Assembly (NCBI RefSeq): GCF_964199755.1
Contig: NC_133906.1
Span: forward strand, 15,225,378-15,289,377
Length of the DNA: 64,000 bases
Source: Larus michahellis
Taxonomy: Eukaryota; Chordata; Aves; Charadriiformes; Laridae
Direction: 5' to 3'
In this document: piece by piece, positions 846-45,462 of the stretch
Position numbering within the stretch: the stretch's first letter is position 1
Layout of the letters: every line of letters begins with the position of its first letter
Notes under the pieces: generated by a model
What the model saw: only the letters and a program-made list of their open reading frames with translations
Database searches by the model: none
What the model was told of the DNA's origin: nothing
Translations under genes and position numbers: made by a program

Positions 846-3800
846 TTATGAAAGCGCCTTTTACTTTAGGTTTTTGAGGTTTTTTGGACAGGATTCCCGG
901 CATTTCAGAACCGCATCCCAAATCTGCCATGAATCCCCATTGAACTCCACCTCCCGCCCCATCTCAGCAGCATCCCCAACTCGCTGCTCTCTCCGCAGAG
1001 CTGGGCAGGGGAGCCCCACAATGCTGAGGAGCCCTGACCCTCCCCTTCCCATAGCCCTCTAAATCCACCCCAGCCAGCCCTCACCCCCCCAGCCCCGCTC
1101 TGTGCTCCCGCATGTCCCCAGCTCTGCGCGGAGGCTGCGGGATGCTGAGGAGCATGGGGAGGGGATGCGCTGTCTCCCTGACAGAGCTGGAACTTCACGG
1201 GAAATTTATACAGCAGGGATTTAGTGACAGGCGCTGGACTGGGGCCAGGAAACTCAGCCTAAGGCGCCTTCTCCTGTGAAGAGCATCGTCGGCTCCGCTC
1301 TGAAGAAAAGTAGCCAGAGCACGGGTTTTGGGTCGTTTCCAGGTGATGGCAGCGCTGGAGCTGTGCTGCTCCATGACATTCTGGATCCAGCAGCTGCCCA
1401 AAATACGGCTTCATCCCCTGTGCCAGCATCTCCTCAGGGTCAGCGGGGTGCCTGCTCGACCTGTGCCTCGGGGGCTGCACCCCGATGCGGGACAGTGCCA
1501 GCCCGGCAAACTGAGCACCATTCCCTGTTCACTGCTCACGGCCGCAGCCACCAGGTTAAATATTGCGCTGGAGTGTTTGGTTGTTTGGGTTTGGGTTGGT
1601 TTTTTTTTGCTTTAAAGCTGATTGTGGCTTGAAGTATTTGGATAATCCATCACGGAACAGCCGCCTTCTTGCAGGTAACTGCTTCGAGATCGATTCAACT
1701 TGGCGTGTTGTCCCCCCCCAACCCAGTCCATGGCACGTGGGAAACGCCATGCCTGGGAGACCCTCCGGTGGTGCTCCGTGGCCACAGGAAATTAAAAAGC
1801 AAAAGCTGGAGGCTGAGGGAGCCGAGCAGGAAAGATGCCTGCAGCATGCTACGTGGTTGGGATCGCTGCTCGGGTCCCGCGAGGCTGGAGATCACACCTT
1901 CACAGGACCGTCTCTGGAACGCAGCCAGCGAATAATCCTCTCCTTTCCCCAAAACGGGAGCTCAGATCCAGTAAACTGCAGAAATCATATTGGAAGGGGT
2001 GACGGCGGCATGGGATGTGCTGCGGGGATGGGGTCCCACAGGCAGCTCTGCAGGAACGTGTTGGAAAACAAATTTCCCTGTCTTGGTTTGTGAATTATGG
2101 CTCCGTCCAACTGCGCCGGGATTCCTCCTGCCCTTCCTCCTCCTCCCAGCTGCCCAGGCTGACGGCCGAGGCATGGGGGTGGAGCAGCTGAAGAGGAGGT
2201 GGGTTTTCTCTTAATGAACTTCTCCCATCGGGGCAGTTTGGACATTAGAAGGGTAACGAGGACGTGTCCTCACCCAGCTGCTTCTCCAGGCTGGAAGGAC
2301 AGACCGACACGGTTATTTTTCAGGTGCTTCCTCGCTGTCTGTGACACGTCCCTGGCTCCAGGATGGGGCTGGAGGGGTCGCAGCATCCCCTGGGACATGT
2401 CCACGCTGCTGTGCTGGTGGCTGCTGGCTCTGCATCAGCCCCACCTGGAGCCCTGGGGGTTCAGCAGAGCGAAACCCAAGGGTGGGTCCCGTTGGACTGA
2501 GGTTTTCTGTTGGTTTATGTCCCCCAGATGGCTTGGCCCTGGGTCAGGGATGCTTGGAGCATCCCTGTTTTTTGGTGATGAGCTTGATTTCTGGGTTTGC
2601 CCCGATCCCTGCCAGGTCCTCAGCCCCGCTCTGCCTTTCCCTCGTCCGCGAGTGCTTTTCAATCATGCAAAACGCAATTTCAAAAAACTCGAGCTTTCTG
2701 CAGCTTCTGATAGGTGTGTGCATCTCCTCTGGCCTTGTCAGCCTCAGGTTAACGAAGGGATTGCCAATTAACTGAAGCTAATGAGTTCTGCGTGAGCTTG
2801 TTTCAGTTTTTCACGGTTGTTTGCTCCAAGAAGCAAATATTTGTGGCTTACTCAAAGCTGCACCTCGGGATTAGCCAAACATGTGTGTGTCCTGGAACAA
2901 GTGCTCGCAGAGCGTCCAGACTGGCAAGCACAGAGATGCTGACTAATTGAAATAAATTGGCAATTGTTAATAGTCCTTCTCCTAAAGGAACAAGGCAAAA
3001 AGCAAACATGGATGTGAGTTATCCTGCCGACATCAAAGGCCGTGTTTATCTTAGTGCTGCTCGCGCTGAAGAACTGCTGCAGAGTTGGGCCCTTTGGTGA
3101 GGAACCGACAACTCGCTCGTGAACGAATTTTGGAAAGAGCCCAGGCGCGGCTGCCGGCGGTCCTTCAGTCAGAGCCCGGCCAGCCCGCGGGGGCTGCGGG
3201 GACACTGGAGCCTTGGGAAGTGTCCCCAGAAAGAGCAGAGGTCTGTGCTTGGGCGCCTGCGCCATTTCCAGACCGGCGGTGGGTGCACGAAGGAGGATTA
3301 ACCCCCCAAAGCTCCACTATGCACCTCGCTGTAGAGGCGCTCGGTGTTTTTTTGCTGTGAGATGCCAGTGCTGGGGTGACGGGATGGTGCGACGCTCCGC
3401 TGCGGGGCTGGCAGTGCTTCACCCCCGGCTGCTCCCGCCCTGGCATGGAGATGGGATGTTCCCCTGGGATGCCGGGAGGGACGGGGCCCAGCACCCACAC
3501 AGCATCGCCCCGGCTCATCTCCTCCCCCAGGTAGGAGCGGGTGGATGCCTGAACCCCTCAGCAGTGCAAACCCAGTAAATTAAGAATAATCAGCATCTGC
3601 TTGTTATAGTGCTAATGAAGTAACGTTGTTTATCCAGGACTTGGTCTGGGCATTTGCCCGTGTGGTTTCCTCTTCTGGAAGTGACCTCATAAGTTGGTGA
3701 CATCAAACAGCAAGTTCCACCCTCCCACCTGCACTGAGCGTCACTCGAGGAAGGTAAGGAGCACCCAGCTAGTTCATGGAGCGATCAGGGAAGCAGCACA

Positions 3801-4124
3801 CGGAGCATCCAGACCCTTCCCAGAATGGACGAGTCACCTCCAGTTTCCTCATAGGTCCTTCCAGCATCTGTTAGAGGCCTTTGCAAGGCGTGCTCCCTCC
3901 TGCCGGCTCAGGAACACACAGAGCAAAGCCCTTTGGTACCCCCAGGTGTTGTGTGTATGATGTGGGACCAGCCGATTGGGGTCAGTTCAACCTGGGTGAA
4001 GGGAGGACTTGGACAGGAGCAGGATTTCCGACCAGGTCCAGCTGCTGGGGTGGGTCATAAAACCAACAAAAAAATGACAGCAAACTGCAAGAGCTCCCTC
4101 CAGCTCTGCCCTTGTTTCTTACAG
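846..4124. other. Non-coding DNA upstream of the CATSPER3 relic
   Basis: No recognisable exon or repeat. The first exon of CATSPER3 should lie upstream of 4125, but I could not identify it. A good donor-like site (AAG|GTAAGG) is at 3751-3757, but the frame that would splice in phase to exon 2 opens only at 3701, has no ATG and does not resemble the CatSper3 N-terminus. Open frames here show no family I recognise. Confidence 0.6.
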
Positions 4125-4278
4125 GAGAAAGGACACCAAGTCCTGCGCCTCCCTGCGCAGGCTGCTGGGCAGCCGCAAATTCACGATGCTCGTGCTCTGC
4201 ATCGTCTCCGTCAGTGCTATCTCCTCGGCTGTGGAGATCAGCTGCCACTGCCGGTGGCGCTGGGGTTCCTCTCCCGAG
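4125..4278 (+). pseudogene. CATSPER3: CATSPER3 relic exon 2 (S1 segment)
   Basis: The acceptor is cttgtttcttacag at 4111-4124. After one base completing a split codon, 51 open codons begin R-R-K-D-T-K-S and continue L-R-R-L-L-G-S-R-K-F into a hydrophobic S1 helix (M-L-V-L-C-I-V-S-V-S-A-I-S-S-A-V). From memory this aligns without gaps to the S1 region of mammalian CatSper3, including its last Glu codon, which puts the exon end at 4278. The following bases are gcgagg, so the donor is GC where GT is expected. The exon ends in phase 0, matching the start of the next exon. Its last 12 codons (rich in Trp and Ser) look drifted. Confidence 0.75.
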
Positions 4279-5015
4279 GCGAGGCGTGGTGGCACTCTCC
4301 CTCGTGCCATGGCCAGGAGGGGGGGGATGGAGGGGATGGGGGTCCGGCCCCCACCACAGCTCAGGGTGGCCACCAGCCCACTGTCCTCCCTGTGCCATTG
4401 CCTGCACCATCCCAGGCCTGGCTGAAATGCATTTCAGCTTCAGATCCTCCACTGATTCGATAATTATTGTTCTTAAAATGCAATTGTTCGGTCCTTTCCA
4501 TAGCAGCCCTTTCCCCGCTCGCGGTTTCAGCGCAGCTAGTTTTAAGCACCCTTTTAATACTCGATTTTCACATTGAAAAATCCCTCTTGGTCACACTTCT
4601 TGATTTCCTTGTCTTACACAAGCCAGCTACTGTACACAAACCTCTGAGCCTTAATTATATATCCCAGTAATATACAGCCAGGCCTGGCTAATGTCAAGAA
4701 ACCCAGTCACGAGCGTCGGAGGTTTCCGAGAGCTCTGGCTGCAGGACCAGGCTCCGTGCGGGGAATGAGCGGCTCGTGCTCGGCTCCGAGGGGCCAATGG
4801 GGTGTATGGTGCATTGGGATGGTGGTGCCAGGTGGTGCCAGGACCCTCCTGCGCTGGGTAGTGACCCGTGATGATGGTGGCGGGGTGAATCTGGCTCACT
4901 TTGGAAATGGTCCCTGTGGGCAGAGGGATGCGGTTGGGGACATTTAATGTGGGAGTGGGGGAAGCGCCAGCGCAGTCCTTGGGGTCTGGCAAGGTTTGCT
5001 TGTTCCTCTTTCCAG

Positions 5016-5261
5016 GTCACAGATGCCGCCTTCGTCGCTGTTTACGCCACTGAGATTTTACTGAAGCTCTACGCAGATCCCATCACTTACTAGAAGAGCG
5101 GCCGCATCGTCTTGGACGCCGACGCCGCCGTCCTCCTCGTTGCCTTCCTCCCGCATGTGTTGCCCGTGGACGCCACCATGCACACTCACCTGGAGGGGAC
5201 GACCAAAGGTCTCCAGACCCTCTGCATACTCAAGCTCATCAAGCACAGCAGCGGGACGCGG
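5016..5261 (+). pseudogene. CATSPER3: CATSPER3 relic exon 3 (S2-S4) with in-frame TAG
   Basis: The acceptor is tgttcctctttccag at 5001-5015 and the donor GG|gtaaag follows 5261; the exon is 82 codons, phase 0 at both ends. It reads V-T-D-A-A-F-V-A-V-Y-A-T-E-I-L-L-K-L-Y-A then D-P-I-T-Y-stop-K-S-G, where the family has D-P-I-x-Y-W-K-x-G: a TGG codon has become TAG at 5091-5093. Downstream come an S3-like L-D-A-D-A-A-V-L-L-V-A-F-L-P and the S4 segment G-L-Q-T-L-C-I-L-K-L-I-K. A gating Arg of S4 (L-R-I-L-K in the human protein as I recall it) is Cys here. Identification is strong because S2, the S2-S3 loop and S4 all match at the right spacing. Confidence 0.93.
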
Positions 5262-8200
5262 GTAAAGCGCGGCTCGCTAATTCAGAGGGGGGATCCCAAA
5301 CCCAGGGGCCGGGGGAGCCCTTGCCGTACCCAGGTGTCGGGGGCTGCCTGGCCCAAGAGCAGCTGATGCTGCGGTAGCTCGTGAGCAAAGGCAAAAAGTA
5401 ATAATTCCTGATTTTTTAAGAAGCCCATGGCTTGGCTGTCATTTCCCCGCCCCCCGCCCCCACCCTGTTTCTCCTTCTCCCAAGGAGAGGAGAGATTTTC
5501 TTTTTTACTACAGCAGACACAAAAAAAAAAACCCAACCCTATAAAACATAGGTCACATCCTATTCTTGGTCTGTGTGTATTTTTCTCTCCAGCACACCAT
5601 CTCCTACTTAGTTTTCTCCTGACGACTCTGGAGGTTTGTTTTTCAGCGAGGAGCTTATGTGGGCAAGGAATGCTCAGCCAGCATTTCTGCGTGTAATTAA
5701 TTGGCTGGGGAGCCCACCAGAAGTGGGATGTTTATGGGCACAGGGCTCTTATAACGTTCACTTCTGAGCCTTCATTTCTCTAGTTTGGATCGTAAACTTC
5801 ACTTATCACCAGGCTTTTATATGTTAATTATTCCGCGTTGCTTGGAGAAGGGAGGACACGTGGAAGCGCACGGAATAATGACTGGTTTAGGCATGGTGGG
5901 TCGGAGGCTCCAGTTTGGTCTGGCTGGTTGTAAGAGACCAAGTTGATGCACGGCAAAATGGGGAGACGTTTAAATCAGGGTAAGTGTGTGTGTGTTGGTT
6001 GGACCCTCACGCTCAAATCTTTAAATCTTATCCTACAGGTTTTCTTCCTTGTGGTCCCCAGACGAGTCATCTCCTGGCAGGGAGTTCCACCAGGAAGAAA
6101 ACCTGTAGGATAACATTTGGCACCGTTGCCCCCTGAGGCGCTTAAAATGTTGAGGTGCTTTGAAAAAATCCCACTGGGCACAAATCTGTGAGTTTAAGAG
6201 CCTAAAGGCCTTTGAAAATCTGGGCCATACGACACTGGGTCTTGATGGAAGTCGGCGGGACTTAACACCTAAGGGACTGGGGCCACTGGGAGATTGCATC
6301 CTGGCTTTGGGTGAGAATGCCTAGAATGGCATTACTGGGGGGGAAAAAATAGCAGAGAGGAAAATTCTTGAGGCTCTCACAGTCCCTTCCTGTTCCAGGG
6401 ATGCTATAAATACCCTGCAAAGCCCTGCCGCGCCGCTGCTTTCCAGCTCCGGGGGCGTTTGGGACTTGCCTTTGCCTCCTGACCTGAAGGGACAAGTGCC
6501 CTGAGCCGCTTGGCATCCCAAGAGACAACACCTACTCGCTTAAAATTTATTTTAAAATACCATAGGGCTGTCTAAATGCATTTTGCTGAAGGTGCGGGAG
6601 GCTATTTATGCCGCTGTGTGTATTGTAATTTATTAATTGAAGCCTAAATTAGCCCTCAACAGGTTAGCAGTATTTAACGCAGAGAGCTCAAACATGCAAC
6701 ACATTCTTGGCACGTTTCCCTTTATTAATTAAAAACCTCTTTAAAACACTCTGCCTTCCACCTTGGAGCAATAAATTTCCACCTTGAGGAAATAATTTCC
6801 TTGTTGTATTCCATACAGAGACGTTCTGTTAGCTGCAATCCCTGTTTTAGTGTAGGCCCCATTCATGCTTATTTCGATTTCAAAATAAACTTTAAAAATG
6901 CCAGGTTGTTCTGGTAAAAAAAAAAAAAAATTAAAAAAATAATAAAAAAAAAAGTCGACTTTTCTGCTTTTTAAAAAATATATATTTGGGATTAATTCCG
7001 ATGTAGTTTACTACCTGTGCAGACTGTGAACCACAAAGGTCTTTCTTAATAAAAGCTCGTAGGAATCCGTGGCGGTTCCTGAGGCAGCCGGAGAAGCCTT
7101 GGCAATGGAAAATGGTCCTGCACGGGAGGCGCTCGCCCGCCTGCAGTCGCTGGGAGCATTTTACAGCCCTCTCGTCACCCCCGGCTCTGGGTGGCTGGTT
7201 TTCTTTATGACCACGTGCCACAGCCCAAACCTGCCCAATGCCATGACATAACTTGGCAAAAATGTCACCTGATTTGGGGGGGTTGGATGTCTTTTGTTCC
7301 CCTGCTGGTCCCGGCCTGCGCCTGCCAGAGAGACCGACGTGTGCAGGGAGGCAGGAAAAACCTCCGCCGGCTCCTCCAAGAGCTTGTACCAAACTGGGTG
7401 AGTTTAGGGCTGGTCTCATTTGGCCTTTCGGAGATGGTTATGCAGACAACGCCATTGCGTGTGTTGTCTCTGCGTTGGGTGCTGCCCCACGTGTAGCGCG
7501 GTGGGGGGATTTTCTGGAGCAGGCAAGACTTGCAAAAGCTGGGAATTCTTCAGAGAAGTGCTGTGGGAGTCCTTAACCCATCACAACAAGGTCTGGGTGT
7601 TGGCAGCTGGAGGAGACCGGGAAGAGCCCCTCGCTCTAGCTCTGCACAAGCGTCCCCTCCAGGAGGTACCATCTGAGGAGCTCAGCCGGATGCATTCCAG
7701 AGCTTTAACTTGAGATGCTGTTGACAGTCAGAGGCGATGGATGAACAGTCCTTGAAGGGGTGCACTGTGTAAGACCCCCCTGGCACTGGCAGGCACAGTG
7801 TTCCCTGGGGAGCAGCCAGCCCGTGCTGCTGCTGCTCTCCAGGGGAAGATACCACGGATGCAAGAGACTCCGTGAAGTTGTCTGTGATTTGGAATTAATG
7901 GAAATGTTCGCATTTACCTAAAAGTTATTACCGACGATAAGCTCAGTTCACCAAACCAGCACGCCTATCAACTCCCAGGCGTGTATTTTGTGTATGTTGG
8001 TGTCATACGTGGGTCTTTACAAGAAGCGAGATGGTCTCAGAGGCATATCACGTCCCTTCCTGGTGACTCCAGGCTTTGCACGGGTCTTTCCCAAGTGGAG
8101 CAGCCATGGAGGGATGAGGGACGACTGCGGTCTCTTGTCTCCCATCCTGGCCCATCCTTTGTGGCAGGGCAGGAGCAGCTGGACACTGGGGGCAGCAGAG

Positions 8201-8702
8201 ATATCGTTCTACCTCCAGTTTGTGCTCAGACCCCAAGGCACAAGGGTTAACAGGACTGCTCGTTTTTATGCAGCTAATTAATTAGTGCAGAAGCAGGGGA
8301 AGAGCTGTATCCTTTATCAACAGGAATCCCTCACCCTGTTAGTCACTTGTCCATATTTCAGGAGGCAGCAAGAAGCCCCTGTGTGCTGGGTGTGATGCTT
8401 CTGGGACCAAGCATCGCCCTTGCCATGGTGCAGGACTTACCACTGAGCCCTGCAGGAGCCATTTCCCAGCCCAAGAGGTTGATGCATGGCCACAGCCTCT
8501 GGATTTTGTCATGCTCCCATGCATCATGATGGTTGTCCCTTCCCTCTCCTTAATTCCCAGTACAGCCCTGTAGATGCATGAAAGGGAGCTGGTTCAGCGG
8601 TGGTCCAGGGAGGTTCCGCATCTCCAGCCCTGCTTCCCAGCCTTCATCCCCTCTGAGCATCTCCCTCACCTACGGAGGAAGCATTTGAGGTTTTTTTTTC
8701 AG
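5262..8702 (+). other. Intron 3 of the CATSPER3 relic
   Basis: A 3.4 kb intron with normal GT and AG ends. It carries the hairpin at 6028-6113, sequence around 6120-6300 that resembles old archosaur or turtle MITEs ('cctttgaaaatctgggcc' type), and an AT-rich block at 6535-6900 that looks selectively maintained (see findings). A poly-A stretch lies near 6917-6953. No exon is recognised. Confidence 0.7.
6028..6113. repeat. Near-perfect inverted repeat (27-bp arms, 32-nt loop)
   Basis: The left arm 6028-6054 and right arm 6087-6113 are reverse complements at 26 of 27 positions, around a core tacaggttttcttcct and its complement, separated by 6055-6086. The match is far better than chance and better than the surrounding old repeat sequence, so it is either a recent inverted duplication or a maintained hairpin. 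Confidence 0.9.
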
Positions 8703-8885
8703 GTTTTCACAGAGACTCTTGGCCAGACGATGCAGACAGTGATGTGTGCCCTCATCCTGCTGGTCCTGCTGATGCTTGTGTTTGCCATTTTGGGAAGTGG
8801 GTGGTACGGAGATCCCAAAACCAGAGACACTGAAAACGGGGGCAGCTTGAAGGCTGCCTTCTTCACGCTCTTCAATTTAGTAACT
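8703..8885 (+). pseudogene. CATSPER3: CATSPER3 relic exon 4 (S5 and pore helix), frame open
   Basis: A polypyrimidine tract and cag precede 8703; GTAAGT follows 8885. The 61 codons are fully open: V-F-T-E-T-L-G-Q-T-M-Q-T-V, a long S5 helix (A-L-I-L-L-V-L-L-M-L-V-F-A-I-L-G), a short extracellular stretch with G-D-P-K-T-R-D-T-E, and the pore helix L-K-A-A-F-F-T-L-F-N-L-V-T. The exon ends just before the selectivity filter, as in the family. This is the best preserved exon; in isolation it would pass as functional. Confidence 0.95.
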
Positions 8886-9270
8886 GTAAGTACAGCAGCA
8901 TTTTCCAGTCCATCTCAGCCAAATGACAAACTGCAGATTTTGGAGTGCTGCTGAAGAAGCCCTTTAACTAACCTGCGACTGCATTAGGAAGAGCGTGAGC
9001 TGCTCGACAGTGACCTTGTCTTCCAGATTCCTGGGAAAATTTGCTTTGATAGACAAACTCCCCTACCCAGCATCACAAATTCAGAGGGGGAAATCTCTGA
9101 AGCTGACAGCAGAGAGATCTGTACCAATTGATTGAAACCTGGACCTCTGAGGAACAGAGAAACTGTTCAGTTTTAAGAAAGAAAGAAAAAGAAGAGGAAG
9201 ATTTCCTATGGCGTGTGAGTTATGCTGTGGTTTGGAACCAACTCTCTGGTCTGCTTAAATACATTTGCAG

Positions 9271-9410
9271 GTTGATGGCTGGACAGACTCACGGCGCGAG
9301 GTGGATCATTACGGGTTTAGAGCAGCCACATGGTCATAGTCACGTTCATCTCCCTGGGCAACTTCATCTTCTCCAATATGTTGATGGCACAAGTGATTAC
9401 CGAACCCCAG
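9271..9410 (+). pseudogene. CATSPER3: CATSPER3 relic exon 5 (selectivity filter and S6), frameshifted
   Basis: The acceptor is catttgcag at 9262-9270; the donor CAG|gtcagg follows 9410. It starts V-D-G-W-T-D, completing the T-x-D-x-W filter signature of CatSper pores with the last Thr of the previous exon. The opening frame runs to about 9329 and then meets TAG at 9337-9339. The S6 helix (M-V-I-V-T-F-I-S-L-G-N-F-I-F-S-N-M-L) resumes at 9330 in another frame, so one base has been lost between the pore and S6. Exon length is 140, where 141 would keep phase. After the shift the exon again ends in phase 0. Confidence 0.93.
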
Positions 9411-10019
9411 GTCAGGAGAGGTCTGTGGAGGCGTGTGTGAGCGTGGGTGGGTGGGTGTGCTACCAGCTCATGGGCTCTGTTGGAAAGCTGGTGCTTGGCT
9501 GCTTGCAGAAGTTGGCTTCTGGTCCAGCTGGAAACTTTCCGGATACAGAAGTCCCCAGTCGCTGAACAGAGTAAGTGGATCTTTCCCCACCGTCCTCCTT
9601 TTGGGTCATCCCTACACCTCTGCTTTGACTATTTTTCCATGGCTGCCGAAAGCTCCCGCTCCTCCCGCACAACCGGATCCCGGCTCCCCTGGGTACACCC
9701 AGGTCCTCTCGGCCACCACCCGTTTCTGCCTCCGTTTCACCCAGGGCTGCTCTCGTGGTCTTGTAGCTGCCTCTGGCCCTTCCGCAACAACTCCCTGCCT
9801 GGAGCCAGGGCCAGTCGGGTGTGCTGGGGGAATATGGCAAATCCCATACGAGAGGCATCTGCTCCCCAGCAGCTATCGGCTGCTTAACACCTCTCACTGC
9901 TGCACGGGGCTGGACCAGGGGTTTTTTGAAGCCCAAATCTCCTTAACAAATCTCTTAACCCCCCCGGTGTGAGCGGTGCTCCAGGACTCACTCGCATCCC
10001 TGTGGTTTGGCGTTGGCAG

Positions 10020-10142
10020 GACTTGGCTCAGGAGTACCACCAGGAGCGCAGAGCAGCGAGGGCGGCTGTTCTTTAGGCCAAGAAACAGAAGATCCTGAAA
10101 AAGCAGCAGAAGAACGTGAGCAACCAAGTCACGCTTGAGCAG
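10020..10142 (+). pseudogene. CATSPER3: CATSPER3 relic exon 6 (coiled coil) with in-frame TAG
   Basis: The acceptor is ttggcag ending at 10019; the donor GAGCAG|gtgggc follows 10142. The exon is 41 codons, phase 0 at both ends: D-L-A-Q-E-Y-H-Q-E-R-R-A-A-R-A-A-V-L, then TAG at 10074-10076, then A-K-K-Q-K-I-L-K-K-Q-Q-K-N. In the family this is the charged, Gln-rich helix just inside the membrane after S6. The stop replaces a codon in this helix; a CAG (Gln) ancestor is a reasonable guess. Placement and phase support the assignment more than residue identity does. Confidence 0.85.
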
Positions 10143-10781
10143 GTGGGCTGTGGTCAGCTGTGAAGAGCACTGTCTGCAAGCATCAGATGCTGTTTAATGG
10201 GGGCGAGACGTGGATGAACTGCTTTGCGTACAGGAAAAATTTCCTTTTCTGTCCTCCCCCATTTTTATAATAATCCAGGCTGTAGATCCTGTGTGCCTTT
10301 TTGGTAGGCTCATCACACGCGCGGCTCAAAGTATGACGATGGCATATAGCGGTTCAAGTATCATAAAGGTGGAGAAAACCTCTTAATCGGTTTTGATGTG
10401 TTTTGTCTGAGTTTGCTTAACTTCAAAGAGAAGTTTTAAAAAAAATCCTTTTAGGTCACGTCGAGCCAAGAGCCCAGTCCAGAAGCGGCTTGGACTCGCT
10501 TTCCGCGAGCGCTCAAGGGAGGTCGTGCTCCTTCCTGCGCTCTCGCAGCCCGTTGATGCGACGTATCCAAAACGCTACTCCGGGCTTGAAACTCACACTG
10601 CAGCGTCGGGAAGGAGAGCTGCGAGCGGCTTGATAAAGGGCTCTTGCAAAGCTGACTAGAAATAAATGCAGTAAAGCTGTCACTGCAATGTAAATGATTA
10701 GAGGAACGTGACTCCCCATTTCCCCCGACTCTTCTGCTCATTCTTGCTTTTAGAAAACGTAATTTAAAAATAATCAGTTCA

Positions 10782-10850
10782 GGATGGCTCTGTTGAGAGG
10801 GTTCTTGCCTTTGGGCCAGAAAATCACTGGTTCGAGTACGAGACTGAGTG
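10782..10850 (+). repeat. Possible tRNA-derived SINE head
   Basis: tggctctgttgagagg resembles a Pol III A box, and ggttcgagtac about 35 bases later resembles a B box (GGTTCGANTCC with changes at its end). The segment does not fold into a full tRNA by eye. It lies in intron 6 of the CATSPER3 relic. It could be the head of an old SINE or chance. Confidence 0.3.
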
Positions 10851-11161
10851 ACCGATTTGGGTCGGTGGTTTGGGTCCCACCCCAAAGGAGGGACGGGGGT
10901 CCCTGCAGAGCTGCAGGACCTGCCTGGGTGGGTGCCAGGGAGCCCCTGGCTGTCTCCCTCGGGACCTGCAGCCCATCCCGTCAGCTCCTGCTCTGCCTGT
11001 CACATCCAGCTGCTCCAGAAGTGCACTGGGGATGGGCATCACGGGCAGCCCCAGCCCGCAGCAGTGAGAAGTCTGTGCAGGGGTCTGCAGGGTGACGGTC
11101 CCAAGTGTCACCTCCTTCTTGCTAACAACATTTTCTATCTGTGTTTTGTTCTTTTTTGCAG

Positions 11162-11316
11162 CACAAAATCTCTCAAGGTAAAGATTTCAGTGGGCTGCTG
11201 GACATCAGAAAGTCTTTGCACCACTCCGATGTCATTATGGATGTTTTTTGTTTCACCATCCCATTTATTGATCTGTATTTGCTCCAGGACGACCTTCGGG
11301 ATGACCCACTGAACAG
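11162..11316 (+). pseudogene. CATSPER3: CATSPER3 relic exon 7 (C-terminal domain), frame open
   Basis: A strong polypyrimidine tract and gcag end at 11161; the donor AACAG|gtcagt follows 11316. The 51 codons plus two bases are open: H-K-I-S-Q-G-K-D-F-S-G-L-L-D-I-R-K-S-L-H, then a stretch with F-x-x-x-I-P-F-I-D-L-Y. The mammalian protein has S-L-P-F-I-D-I-Y at the same place as I recall it. It joins exon 8 through a split Ser/Arg codon, and the phases fit. Confidence 0.92.
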
Positions 11317-12511
11317 GTCAGTAATAGTGGAGCAGCTTGTGACAACAAGAGAGACTCCAGGTTACAAAAACAGATGCCCTTTTGATGTACTGAATTATTT
11401 TCTTGGAATGAATGGACATTTTGAGGCTGTTCTCCCTAGGGGAAATGCTACTGGTCTCATCACCAGCAGTGCTGAGAGCCTGGGAAGGTACCAGCATACG
11501 GCATGTGCTAGAAATGGGACTGGTTTCCTCCCCATCAGGAGAGCTAACGCCATTCCCCAGCGTTGGTGTGAGCTCGGTGTCCATCACAAATGTGCTCAAG
11601 TTCCTGCTGGAGAATTCCTCGTTCTTCATTGCACCCCAGCCCTGGCACGTCTTGGAGCTGACAGAGCCCCGGGTGTCCCCTGGGTGCACAGCCCCGAGCA
11701 AGGGCCCGTCCCCCGGGTCCAGCTCCATGTTCCACGCCCAGCATGCCTGGGAGAGAGGCGAGAGCGCATCCCGGATTTCTGGGGGCAGTGGGGCTGGAGG
11801 ACGTGTTTGCACCCGAGTCTGGGAGGTGAGGAGGACTTGCCACCTTCTTGCATTGGTAGTCCAGGCTGAGCTGAGCTTTGCCTCGGCCGTGGACTTCTCT
11901 GGATCTTGTCTGGGGAAGGACTAACCCCGGGCAGCGAGTCGAAACCGTGTAACCAGAAAAACCTCCCACAAATCCCCCAGATGGAGACTGCTGAGTTTTA
12001 CATGTCTTAGGTTAACCTTAATGTGATACAAGCCTATGATCACAGCTTGGTACCTATTGTTTAAAAACCCCGCGGTCTGGCCTGGAGTTCGGATAAAATT
12101 CCCTGGATATCAAAAATTCCCTTTTGCCCCGTTCCCCAGGTGACTGTGGCTACTGTCAGGAGTCTCTGTATTATTTCCGCCCCCGTACTTTGAAAGCACT
12201 GACCAGGACTAGTGCTTCTGAAAAGGTTTTGTTGTGTGCTTGGCACAGGTTGCGGAGCCAGTCCTGGGCTGCATTTCTGCTGTTCTCCTCTAATCTCTGG
12301 GAGAAAATTATTTTCAAGGATGTTAAAGAAAATCTACAGAGCCCAGGGGGCTCAACGTCACACGAAATTCTCGGGACCTTTCCACTGGTCCTTGCCCTGC
12401 GGGCTGGATGGAGGGGTGCTTGCAGAGGGTGCAGTTCTCCACGTGCCTTAGACATGGAGCTTCCCCTCTTGCGTGGTGTTTGGGGGTCTTTTTACCGTGC
12501 TCTCCCTGCAG

Positions 12512-12719
12512 CTTGCAACATCACTATCACAAACACGCTGGCATAGTGAGAGAGATCGTGGAAGTCATGAAAGAAAAACCTTTGCCAGCTCATGAGAAGA
12601 GGAAAAGTTCAAAGCTCTTTAGGGGGAACGTGATCCTTGGTGGCTGCCAGACCTCTGCCTACAATCTCCTCTTCAAACCTGCATTAAAACAAGCCAGAAA
12701 CATTTATGATTACAAATAA
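12512..12719 (+). pseudogene. CATSPER3: CATSPER3 relic last exon with terminal TAA
   Basis: The acceptor is ctctccctgcag at 12500-12511. After one base completing the codon split with exon 7, the frame runs L-Q-H-H-Y-H-K-H-A-G-I-V-R-E-I-V-E-V-M to a TAA at 12717-12719. The first part matches the C-terminal helix of CatSper3 (K-L-Q-x-x-Y-x-E-I-V-x-V). The last 30 or so codons extend beyond the usual family length, so the original stop may have been lost or moved. No polyadenylation signal is obvious just downstream. Confidence 0.85.
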
Positions 12720-28805: not shown

Positions 28806-28896
28806 GGAAGGAAGGAAGGAAGGAAGGAAGGAAGGAAGGAAGGAAGGAAGGAAGGAAGGAAGGAAGGAAGGAAGGAAGGAAGGAAGGAAGGAAGGA
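28806..28896. repeat. (GGAA)n microsatellite, about 22 units
   Basis: Uninterrupted ggaa units run from 28806 to about 28896. Together with the following degenerate gaaaag stretch and the AAAAG array it forms an almost pure purine strand of about 330 bases. The antisense open frame through it (Phe/Ser/Leu repeats) is not a gene. Confidence 0.98.
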
Positions 28897-28974
28897 AAAT
28901 AAGGAAAAGAAATTAAAGAGAGAAAGAAGAGAAAAGAAGAGAAAAGAGAAGAAAAGAAGAGAAAAGAAGAGAGA

Positions 28975-29137
28975 AAAGAAAAGAAAAGAAAAGAAAAGAA
29001 AAGAAAAGAAAAGAAAAGAAAAGAAAAGAAAAGAAAAGAAAAGAAAAGAAAAGAAAAGAAAAGAAAAGAAAAGAAAAGAAAAGAAAAGAAAAGAAAAGAA
29101 AAGAAAAGAAAAGAAAAGAAAAGAAAAGAAAGAAAAG
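28975..29137. repeat. (AAAAG)n pentanucleotide array, about 32 units
   Basis: Near-perfect aaaag units run from about 28975 to 29137, flanked on the left by a mixed agaaaag/agagaaaag stretch (28905-28974) that looks like its mutated edge. Confidence 0.98.
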
Positions 29138-31066
29138 ATGAGAGTAAACCTGAAATCAGCTAGACAGATAAATGTGCATGGGATGGATTGCAGTACACCC
29201 GAGCCTGATAGCTGTGTTAAAGCGAGCAAATAGGTGTCTGTATATCACATATTGGTTTGTTGAATGGGTGTGGAACTGATAAATATGGAAGCGAGAAAGG
29301 TGGATTGGGTAGGCAAAGTAACTGCTGGGTGGCGGGGAAGTTAAGCAGAGTAAATGTAATGTGGATAGATTAAAATATGGAAATGTGGACTATCACAAGG
29401 AGGTATTGTAAGTACATAGCTATAATAGGTAGCAAGTAGATAAGTACAGACATAATAGAAAACTTAGCTGGACATATGGAATAAATGGAGACATCAACTG
29501 GTATCTGTATCAATTAACATGTTTAGGTAAAGGGACATGCAGAGATGTTCTGGGCTACATAAATTAAACAGAAGTGACACGAGCAGCAGTGACACTAACA
29601 GATCTAAATGGGAAAATGGATGTAAGGAGGAAGAGGTGATCAACTGTAAATACTGGGACTATTCCAGGGTTAGGTCAGCTGAGTAAAAGCTGGATGGATG
29701 GGTGGATGAAGAGATGGGTATATATACCCACTGAAGGGTTTGTTAACTGAGCTTGTTTTAGCTAGAAAGATTGACTAAGTAAACCTGTAGAGAGCAGATT
29801 AATCAATTAAAGGCCAAAAGAGAAAGAGATTAGATTGAGATGGACAGGTTTATGGAAGACAGAACGCGTGTTGTCTAGGTAAAGGGATGGAAAGATAGCT
29901 GGAATGATGGAATAATATATGATTAATACAGACAGAAAATATGGGCTGGTAGGGTGAATAGGGCACTGATGATGGGGAATGTGGATAGAGGGGGGAACAG
30001 ATAAAAGAACAATAACAGAGTTAATAGATGAGTAGTTAATAGAGTAATAGATGAGTAATGCCCATAGAGAGGGTAGTTAGTTGTCAATTGTCTCAACGAA
30101 CACAAAAAGAAATGTGAAAAAAGCGATGTACAAGACATAGGTGAGCAAAGGAGGGATTGGGTAGGTGCATACAAAAAAGATAAAGTGCACAAACGTGAGA
30201 GGAGAGTAGATATGGGAAAAAGCAAAAAAGCACTAAAGGAAGAGTCAGATAAAATAGGCACAGAGTAAATAGATTACATATACAATTCATACAAAATAAA
30301 GAGATTATGCTGAAAAAACAAGCTTGGAACAATTAGCAAGCTAACAGGTTGGACTAGGTATTGAGTAGATAGAGACAGAGGAGTATTCATGAGCTGGGAG
30401 TGTTGAGAAATTAGCCCGCTGATCAAGTACGAATTAGAGGGATGTTAAATGGGGGAATAAATCCTGGACAGGATGATGGATGAAGAAGGATGTGGGTGCC
30501 CATACAGATGAGTGGGTACCAGGAAGCTCGACAGAGTGGGTTCGAGTGAGCAGAGAGATGAATATGGATGGCAGAAGGAGGAAGACGAAAATACATAGTT
30601 TACCATGTGCTATGGAAATACAGCGAGATTAATTAAAATTTGCATCAGATTGACTAGATAGGTAAGTAGTCACGGGCATTAGCTTAATGAGTATGTATAA
30701 AAGAGACTGCGAAAAAAATCGTTAATCGTGGCATTAGTTGCAGCGATGTCTTAGGCATGACAGGCAAAAGCAGAAGTGGTGAATACATTAGTGCTATAAG
30801 AAAGGAGGAGAGAGATTAGTAGATGTGAGATAGACTAGATGTGTGAGACATGAATGTATGCAACATAGGCAAAGAGGTCAGGTAAATGAGAATCCACGGA
30901 GATAATGGATTGCTATGTGTTATGAAACTCAAATATAAACACCTACAGGGATGTGTGGGAGACAAAATTAGGTGATCCGCAGTCCTAAGATGGACAGAAA
31001 GAGAACAGATCTGTTTGCACAAGAAATAAGCATAGAGAAATTACACGGTCAAGGCTGAGATGTGAC

Positions 31067-39091: not shown

Positions 39092-45462
<6,371 letters not shown>

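Follow-up and report, generated by a model that had tools for sequence, protein, structure and literature searches.

CATSPER3 is a calcium-channel gene needed by mammalian sperm. Degenerate CATSPER3 copies have been described from chicken, where synteny is conserved, and from zebra finch (PMC2572835), and CATSPER3, B, D and E are described as fragments in zebra finch (PMC6679542). As excerpted, published surveys report that CATSPER1, 4 and G are missing in Neognathae and present in ratites (PMC6679542), that CatSper is kept by only two palaeognaths among the birds surveyed (PMC6660944), and that CATSPERB occurs in a ratite only (PMC4290089). An excerpt of a 2024 study counts 9 bird CATSPER3 sequences and states that 'only CatSper1 is absent' in birds (PMC11289002), and CatSper loss has been tied to hot internal testes, a thermal idea (PMC12006431, as excerpted). 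No selection test on neoavian CATSPER3 was found in the literature searched; other papers may contain one. A first-pass annotation of the locus described here gave CatSper genes as reported absent from birds, a statement contradicted by long CATSPER3 models in kiwi, tinamou, ostrich, rhea and emu, and by PMC6660944 so far as its excerpted text goes. A bird CATSPER3 relic is not new in kind, since degenerate copies were printed in 2008 and 2019 (PMC2572835 and PMC6679542, as excerpted). New here are a fuller anatomy of such a relic and signs that constraint was lost before most modern birds diversified.

The window is the whole 64-kb stretch of Larus michahellis DNA that was analysed. We conclude, with a probability of about 0.95, that its CATSPER3 locus is a unitary, non-processed pseudogene in a neoavian bird. 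Condor CATSPER3 (P0001) matches each of exons a to g by tblastn (E values from 9e-28 to 3e-9), and these 7 exons follow one another in order along the + strand, with their junctions checked; an eighth, CATSPER3 exon 1, is probable at 3800-3911. The exons and the syntenic neighbour within the window are as follows.

3800..3911, + strand: probable CATSPER3 exon 1, decayed; palaeognath peptide profile; ACG for ATG; 112 bp against 113; donor GT changed to GA
4125..4278, + strand: CATSPER3 exon a (S1 region); tblastn with condor, E 2e-16; donor GT changed to GC
5016..5261, + strand: CATSPER3 exon b (S2-S4 region); E 9e-28; TAG at 5091-5093; 6-bp tandem insertion
8703..8885, + strand: CATSPER3 exon c (S5 and pore start); E 6e-25; open
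9271..9410, + strand: CATSPER3 exon d (VDGW filter, S6); E 1e-10, in two frames; 1-bp deletion at 9319-9320
10020..10142, + strand: CATSPER3 exon e; E 2e-15; TAG at 10074-10076
11162..11316, + strand: CATSPER3 exon f (FIDLYL motif); E 3e-17; two 3-bp deletions
12512..12608, + strand: CATSPER3 exon g (last); E 3e-9; TCA in the stop place, 12609-12611
39092..45423, - strand: PITX1, syntenic neighbour; three coding exons by eye; homeodomain parts, OAR motif PF03826

The seven ordered exons of a CATSPER3 pseudogene in a bird had been claimed at 4125..12719. The exons stand; that extent missed the probable exon 1 and took in read-through past the lost stop (12609-12719).

The best match of the read-through, with X at the breaks, is mouse CatSper3 (7eeb_C; 1.7e-53, 185 bits), and bird and reptile CATSPER3 occupy the top of the protein search with it. 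The exons could instead derive from a different voltage-gated channel gene, which the first-pass annotation had named as a refuting case. Matches to Pfam Ion_trans (83 bits) and to Cav channels do exist, but the best other channel, Cav1.2, reaches 66 bits against 185, no exon matched a different family better, and with the protein search and synteny also pointing to CATSPER3 the chance of such an origin is next to negligible. The selectivity filter of CatSper channels follows the rule T-x-D-x-W. The T-V-D-G-W motif reported earlier is present at 8883-8885 and 9271-9282, split by the intron between 8885 and 9271.

Gene order in mammals is PCBD2-CATSPER3-PITX1. The relic likewise lies between PCBD2, just upstream of the window, with exons 23.1 kb and 4.1 kb upstream on the same strand, and PITX1 on the - strand at about 39.1-45.4 kb, which is the place beside PITX1 where it had been expected. 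A sheep read-through model (P0149) is a fusion of PCBD2 with CATSPER3. Elsewhere in the window, an avian-type CR1 repeat was recognised by eye at 121-840, and at 28806-29138 (GGAA)23 precedes a long GAAAA array, with strong purine skew over 28-30 kb. Within the 64 kb, Rfam gave 0 matches at the gathering threshold and ARAGORN 0 genes.

The relic retains its introns. Because acceptors are AG at 7/7 sites and donors GT at 5/7, with the probable exon 1 included, it is not a retrocopy. The changed donors are GA at the probable exon 1 and GC at exon a; GC splice donors can work. Both premature stops replace Trp, that in exon b relative to palaeognath and other functional genes and that in exon e relative to palaeognath genes. 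The 1 bp deleted in exon d shifts the frame, and three indels keep it, namely the 6-bp tandem insertion in exon b (near 5115-5126) and the two 3-bp deletions in exon f. With the start-codon place of the probable exon 1 reading ACG and the stop codon lost, the disabling lesions comprise two stops, one frameshift, both terminal codons and two changed donors, and the locus lacks the open frame with a start codon expected of a functional subunit. That the gene works and its breaks are assembly errors is very improbable: no point was found in support, and assembly errors would produce neither the loss of start and stop with changed donors nor 84/359 residue changes that fall on fixed and variable sites in like proportion (see below).

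The exon 1 peptide was located at 3800-3853 with an 18-residue profile of three palaeognath peptides. Its score, 31.3, was the top of a six-frame scan of the 64 kb (next place 18.7) and was reached by 0/300 random sequences generated from dinucleotide statistics of the 4.1 kb upstream, in a scan made somewhat favourable by a profile length prompted by an earlier tblastn look. At 22 residues the three-peptide profile still ranked the place first (0.003); a seven-peptide profile, with turtles and gharial added, ranked it first at 18 residues (0.003) and third at 22 (0.057). With 30 residues, which reach beyond the presumed frameshift, both profiles left it outside the window's top four, and the second half scores weakly by itself (rank 162 of 127894). 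The borders fit: the exon spans 112 bp where the kiwi peptide predicts 113, and its end falls at the expected end of a split arginine codon. The length suggests a 1-bp deletion within the exon, which would be the second CATSPER3 frameshift.

The genome searched is an assembly of 1,405,500,149 bases in 616 contigs, and no second CATSPER3 copy was found in it among scored candidates; within that scope there is no working copy elsewhere, and the pseudogene is unitary. Kiwi CATSPER3 gave 9 matches, 4 of them the relic locus; the remaining 5, considered as a second copy, have 24-36% identity and open frames and were read as other channels.

Whether other CATSPER subunit genes survive in this species had been raised with the first-pass annotation. 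CATSPERB proved to be a stop-ridden relic, and CATSPER1, CATSPER4 and CATSPERG gave no credible match. The CATSPERB_C family (PF15149) is above cut-off at three stretches within 2.4 kb, on another contig:

C4:40750047-40752472: CATSPERB relic; three matched stretches with at least one internal stop in each

The part of one of these stretches that precedes its stop aligns with mouse CatSper beta (1.3e-4). For CATSPERG (PF15064) the one genome match scored 19.3 bits, below the cut-off of 27, in an uncalibrated search; the two family searches gave matches in 0/14 control genomes. Mouse CATSPER4 (237 residues) found 0 genome matches at E <=0.01 and mouse CATSPER1 (266 residues) no credible one, both in uncalibrated searches; 8 CATSPER1 matches of 26-33% identity with open frames were read as other channels. 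As a control, a rat CATSPER3 query hit the CATSPER3 relic in two exons (1.6e-9 and 4e-8) and gave 8 further matches elsewhere, so that a CATSPER1 or CATSPER4 relic in a similar state would probably be visible with a mammalian query.

Residue changes were counted in an alignment of 17 neoavian models and the Larus relic with 44 CATSPER3 proteins assumed to be functional, 7 of them palaeognath and 37 non-bird. Fixed sites are the 81 columns in which uniformity among the 37 non-bird sequences is at least 95%; the other 281 sites are variable. Intronic read-through in the neoavian rows was masked, and the relic was compared with the Neoaves majority with Calidris left out. It has changed at 17/80 fixed and 67/279 variable sites, 84/359 in total, a fixed/variable ratio of 0.88. 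The palaeognaths, each against their own majority, have ratios of 0.00, 0.07, 0.19, 0.20, 0.12 and 0.12, with 0.68 for the Rhea model; six pooled, leaving out Rhea with its odd C-terminus, give 11/480 fixed and 289/1639 variable changes and a ratio of 0.13. Under that palaeognath ratio, at least 17/80 fixed changes have a probability of 4e-10. These counts are those of neutral evolution and show that amino-acid change ignores functional constraint on the Larus michahellis CATSPER3 lineage. The intron control was mixed: non-exonic identity to the relic was at least as high as exonic in 3/27 models and lower in 24/27, some on very few residues, in a protein-level alignment where frame slips at indels depress intron identity.

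The Neoaves stem carries derived residues at 10/81 fixed and 47/281 variable sites (ratio 0.74), the Neoaves consensus being the majority of annotated models rather than a reconstructed ancestor. The 10 fixed changes compare with 1.8 expected under the palaeognath ratio (P = 2e-5). By the same count the short palaeognath stem, with 2/81 fixed and 14/281 variable changes (ratio 0.50; P = 0.10), is not significant with respect to constraint.

We examined 20 annotated neoavian models, 14 among the best 120 of 201 proteins and six more, which carry organism names, from a second search (106 proteins from at least 7997 candidates). By eye, a normal exon 1 is present in none of them. At least one of exons a to g is without an in-frame match in 17/20, and all seven are in frame only in condor, fulmar and Balearica. 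Out-of-frame exon stretches occur in 5/20 scanned models (two Grus, Ciconia, one Accipiter and one Buteo), and by eye also in exon b of Balearica and Mycteria. Across the 17 aligned models the fixed/variable ratio lies between 0.26 and 1.11. The palaeognath ratio is rejected for condor (P = 0.0015), fulmar (0.00002) and Aquila (0.007); a ratio of 1 fits condor and fulmar, and Aquila falls below it (0.03). Crane and stork rows are low, at 0.26-0.51 in 5 rows. With P values uncorrected over 18 rows, Grus americana and Ciconia are compatible with the palaeognath ratio (0.08 and 0.19), Balearica and Mycteria barely reject it (0.04 and 0.04), and a ratio of 1 is rejected by Grus americana (0.006), Ciconia (0.004), Balearica (0.004) and Mycteria (0.04). 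Grus japonensis rejects neither. Several neoavian CATSPER3 database models thus look like the same pseudogene; cranes and stork are less clear.

In the tree, the relic is inside the neoavian clade with 100% ultrafast bootstrap, and groups with Calidris and Patagioenas at only 64%. It shares derived residues with Calidris at 9/48 comparable sites, the best other rows having 3/27 and 6/62. With the avian-type CR1 repeat, the tree and the shared residues point to a shorebird relative, weakly in this last step. Resemblance to annotated pseudogenes, with exons missing or out of frame, is frequent among neoavian models P0001-P0006, P0008, P0010, P0011, P0022, P0026 and P0036, and others. A segment 1.2 kb before the window (C15:15224190-15224291), not recognisable as CATSPER3 exon 1, is 81% identical to the first exon of the Grus americana model (MPCKQLW...); similar starts occur in pelican and pigeon models. 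Positions 3008-3095, outside the CATSPER3 exons, match a 30-residue stretch of the Accipiter gentilis model at 25/30 residues.

The relic had been expected to show how the gene was lost and to let the loss be dated. Its decay pattern does bear on the date. Its lesions do not show the first inactivating event, because no stop or frameshift common to Neoaves was found in the protein models, which show little of such lesions. Since the Neoaves stem already carried changes at 10/81 fixed sites, constraint on CATSPER3 probably lapsed before the Neoaves radiation. Simulated drift on the relic's codons gives d = 0.129 per site for its 84/359 changes and d = 0.063 (0.029-0.124) for the 10/81 of the stem. 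At a substitution rate of 1.9e-9 per site and year these values would correspond to about 68 and 33 (15-66) million years. The Neoaves crown lies near the end of the Cretaceous. The figure of about 68 million years would fit that crown, and that of 33 (15-66) million years would mean that constraint ended on the neognath or Neoaves stem.

Alternatively, CATSPER3 still worked at the Neoaves crown, and its loss came later and separately in the Larus lineage and others. This would suit out-of-frame stretches that differ between lineages, the in-frame exons a to g of the condor and fulmar models, and the crane and stork ratios, which fit constraint better than a ratio of 1. We nevertheless regard it as unlikely, given the excess of fixed-site changes on the Neoaves stem, the tip ratio of the relic, the lack of a normal exon 1 in all 20 models by eye, and the frame breaks within the Grus, Ciconia, Accipiter and Buteo models themselves. 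More doubtful still is a persistence of CATSPER3 in Neoaves, partly constrained, beyond that of the other pore subunits, with its decay latest in some lineages (cranes and storks) and a near-complete protein still encoded in others (condor and fulmar); this would imply stepwise channel loss and a role apart from the heterotetramer.

Under the early loss that we favour, constraint on CATSPER3 would have lapsed on the neognath or Neoaves stem, plausibly in the course of losing the entire CatSper channel; the exons would have drifted ever since. They may still be readable because about 0.13 substitutions per site would spare about three quarters of the residues, with about three stops expected. 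The relic has 2 stops, against 3.3-4.3 expected at d of 0.13 to 0.18. We ascribe no function to it today.

Compared with known systems, the locus adds the near-complete anatomy of a bird CATSPER3 relic. It resembles the chicken and zebra finch CATSPER3 in being a broken gene with conserved synteny and short conserved stretches; those copies are described as fragments, whereas the Larus relic can be followed, splice sites included, through seven exons and a probable eighth (PMC2572835 and PMC6679542, as excerpted). Palaeognath (kiwi, ostrich, emu, tinamous, rhea) and reptile CATSPER3 share the exon order and residues of the relic, the seven main palaeognath models being 48-51% and further isoforms 41-45% identical to the read-through among the best 120 of 201 proteins. 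Unlike the relic, palaeognath CATSPER3 keeps its fixed sites in 6/7 models (ratios 0-0.20; Rhea, with its odd C-terminus, 0.68). The closest relatives of the relic are the neoavian models (condor, fulmar, pelican, cranes, storks, hawks, eagles, falcons and Calidris), which like it are without a normal exon 1 by eye, with condor, fulmar and Aquila departing from the palaeognath ratio. They differ in that databases predict genes there, that 5/20 have out-of-frame stretches, and that Grus americana and Ciconia are compatible with the constraint ratio. By the fixed-versus-variable site test several of these database entries behave like pseudogenes, which bears on the count of 9 bird CATSPER3 sequences with only CATSPER1 absent (PMC11289002, as excerpted). 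The probable placing of the loss before the Neoaves radiation, with wide error, matters for ideas that invoke hot internal testes (PMC12006431, as excerpted).
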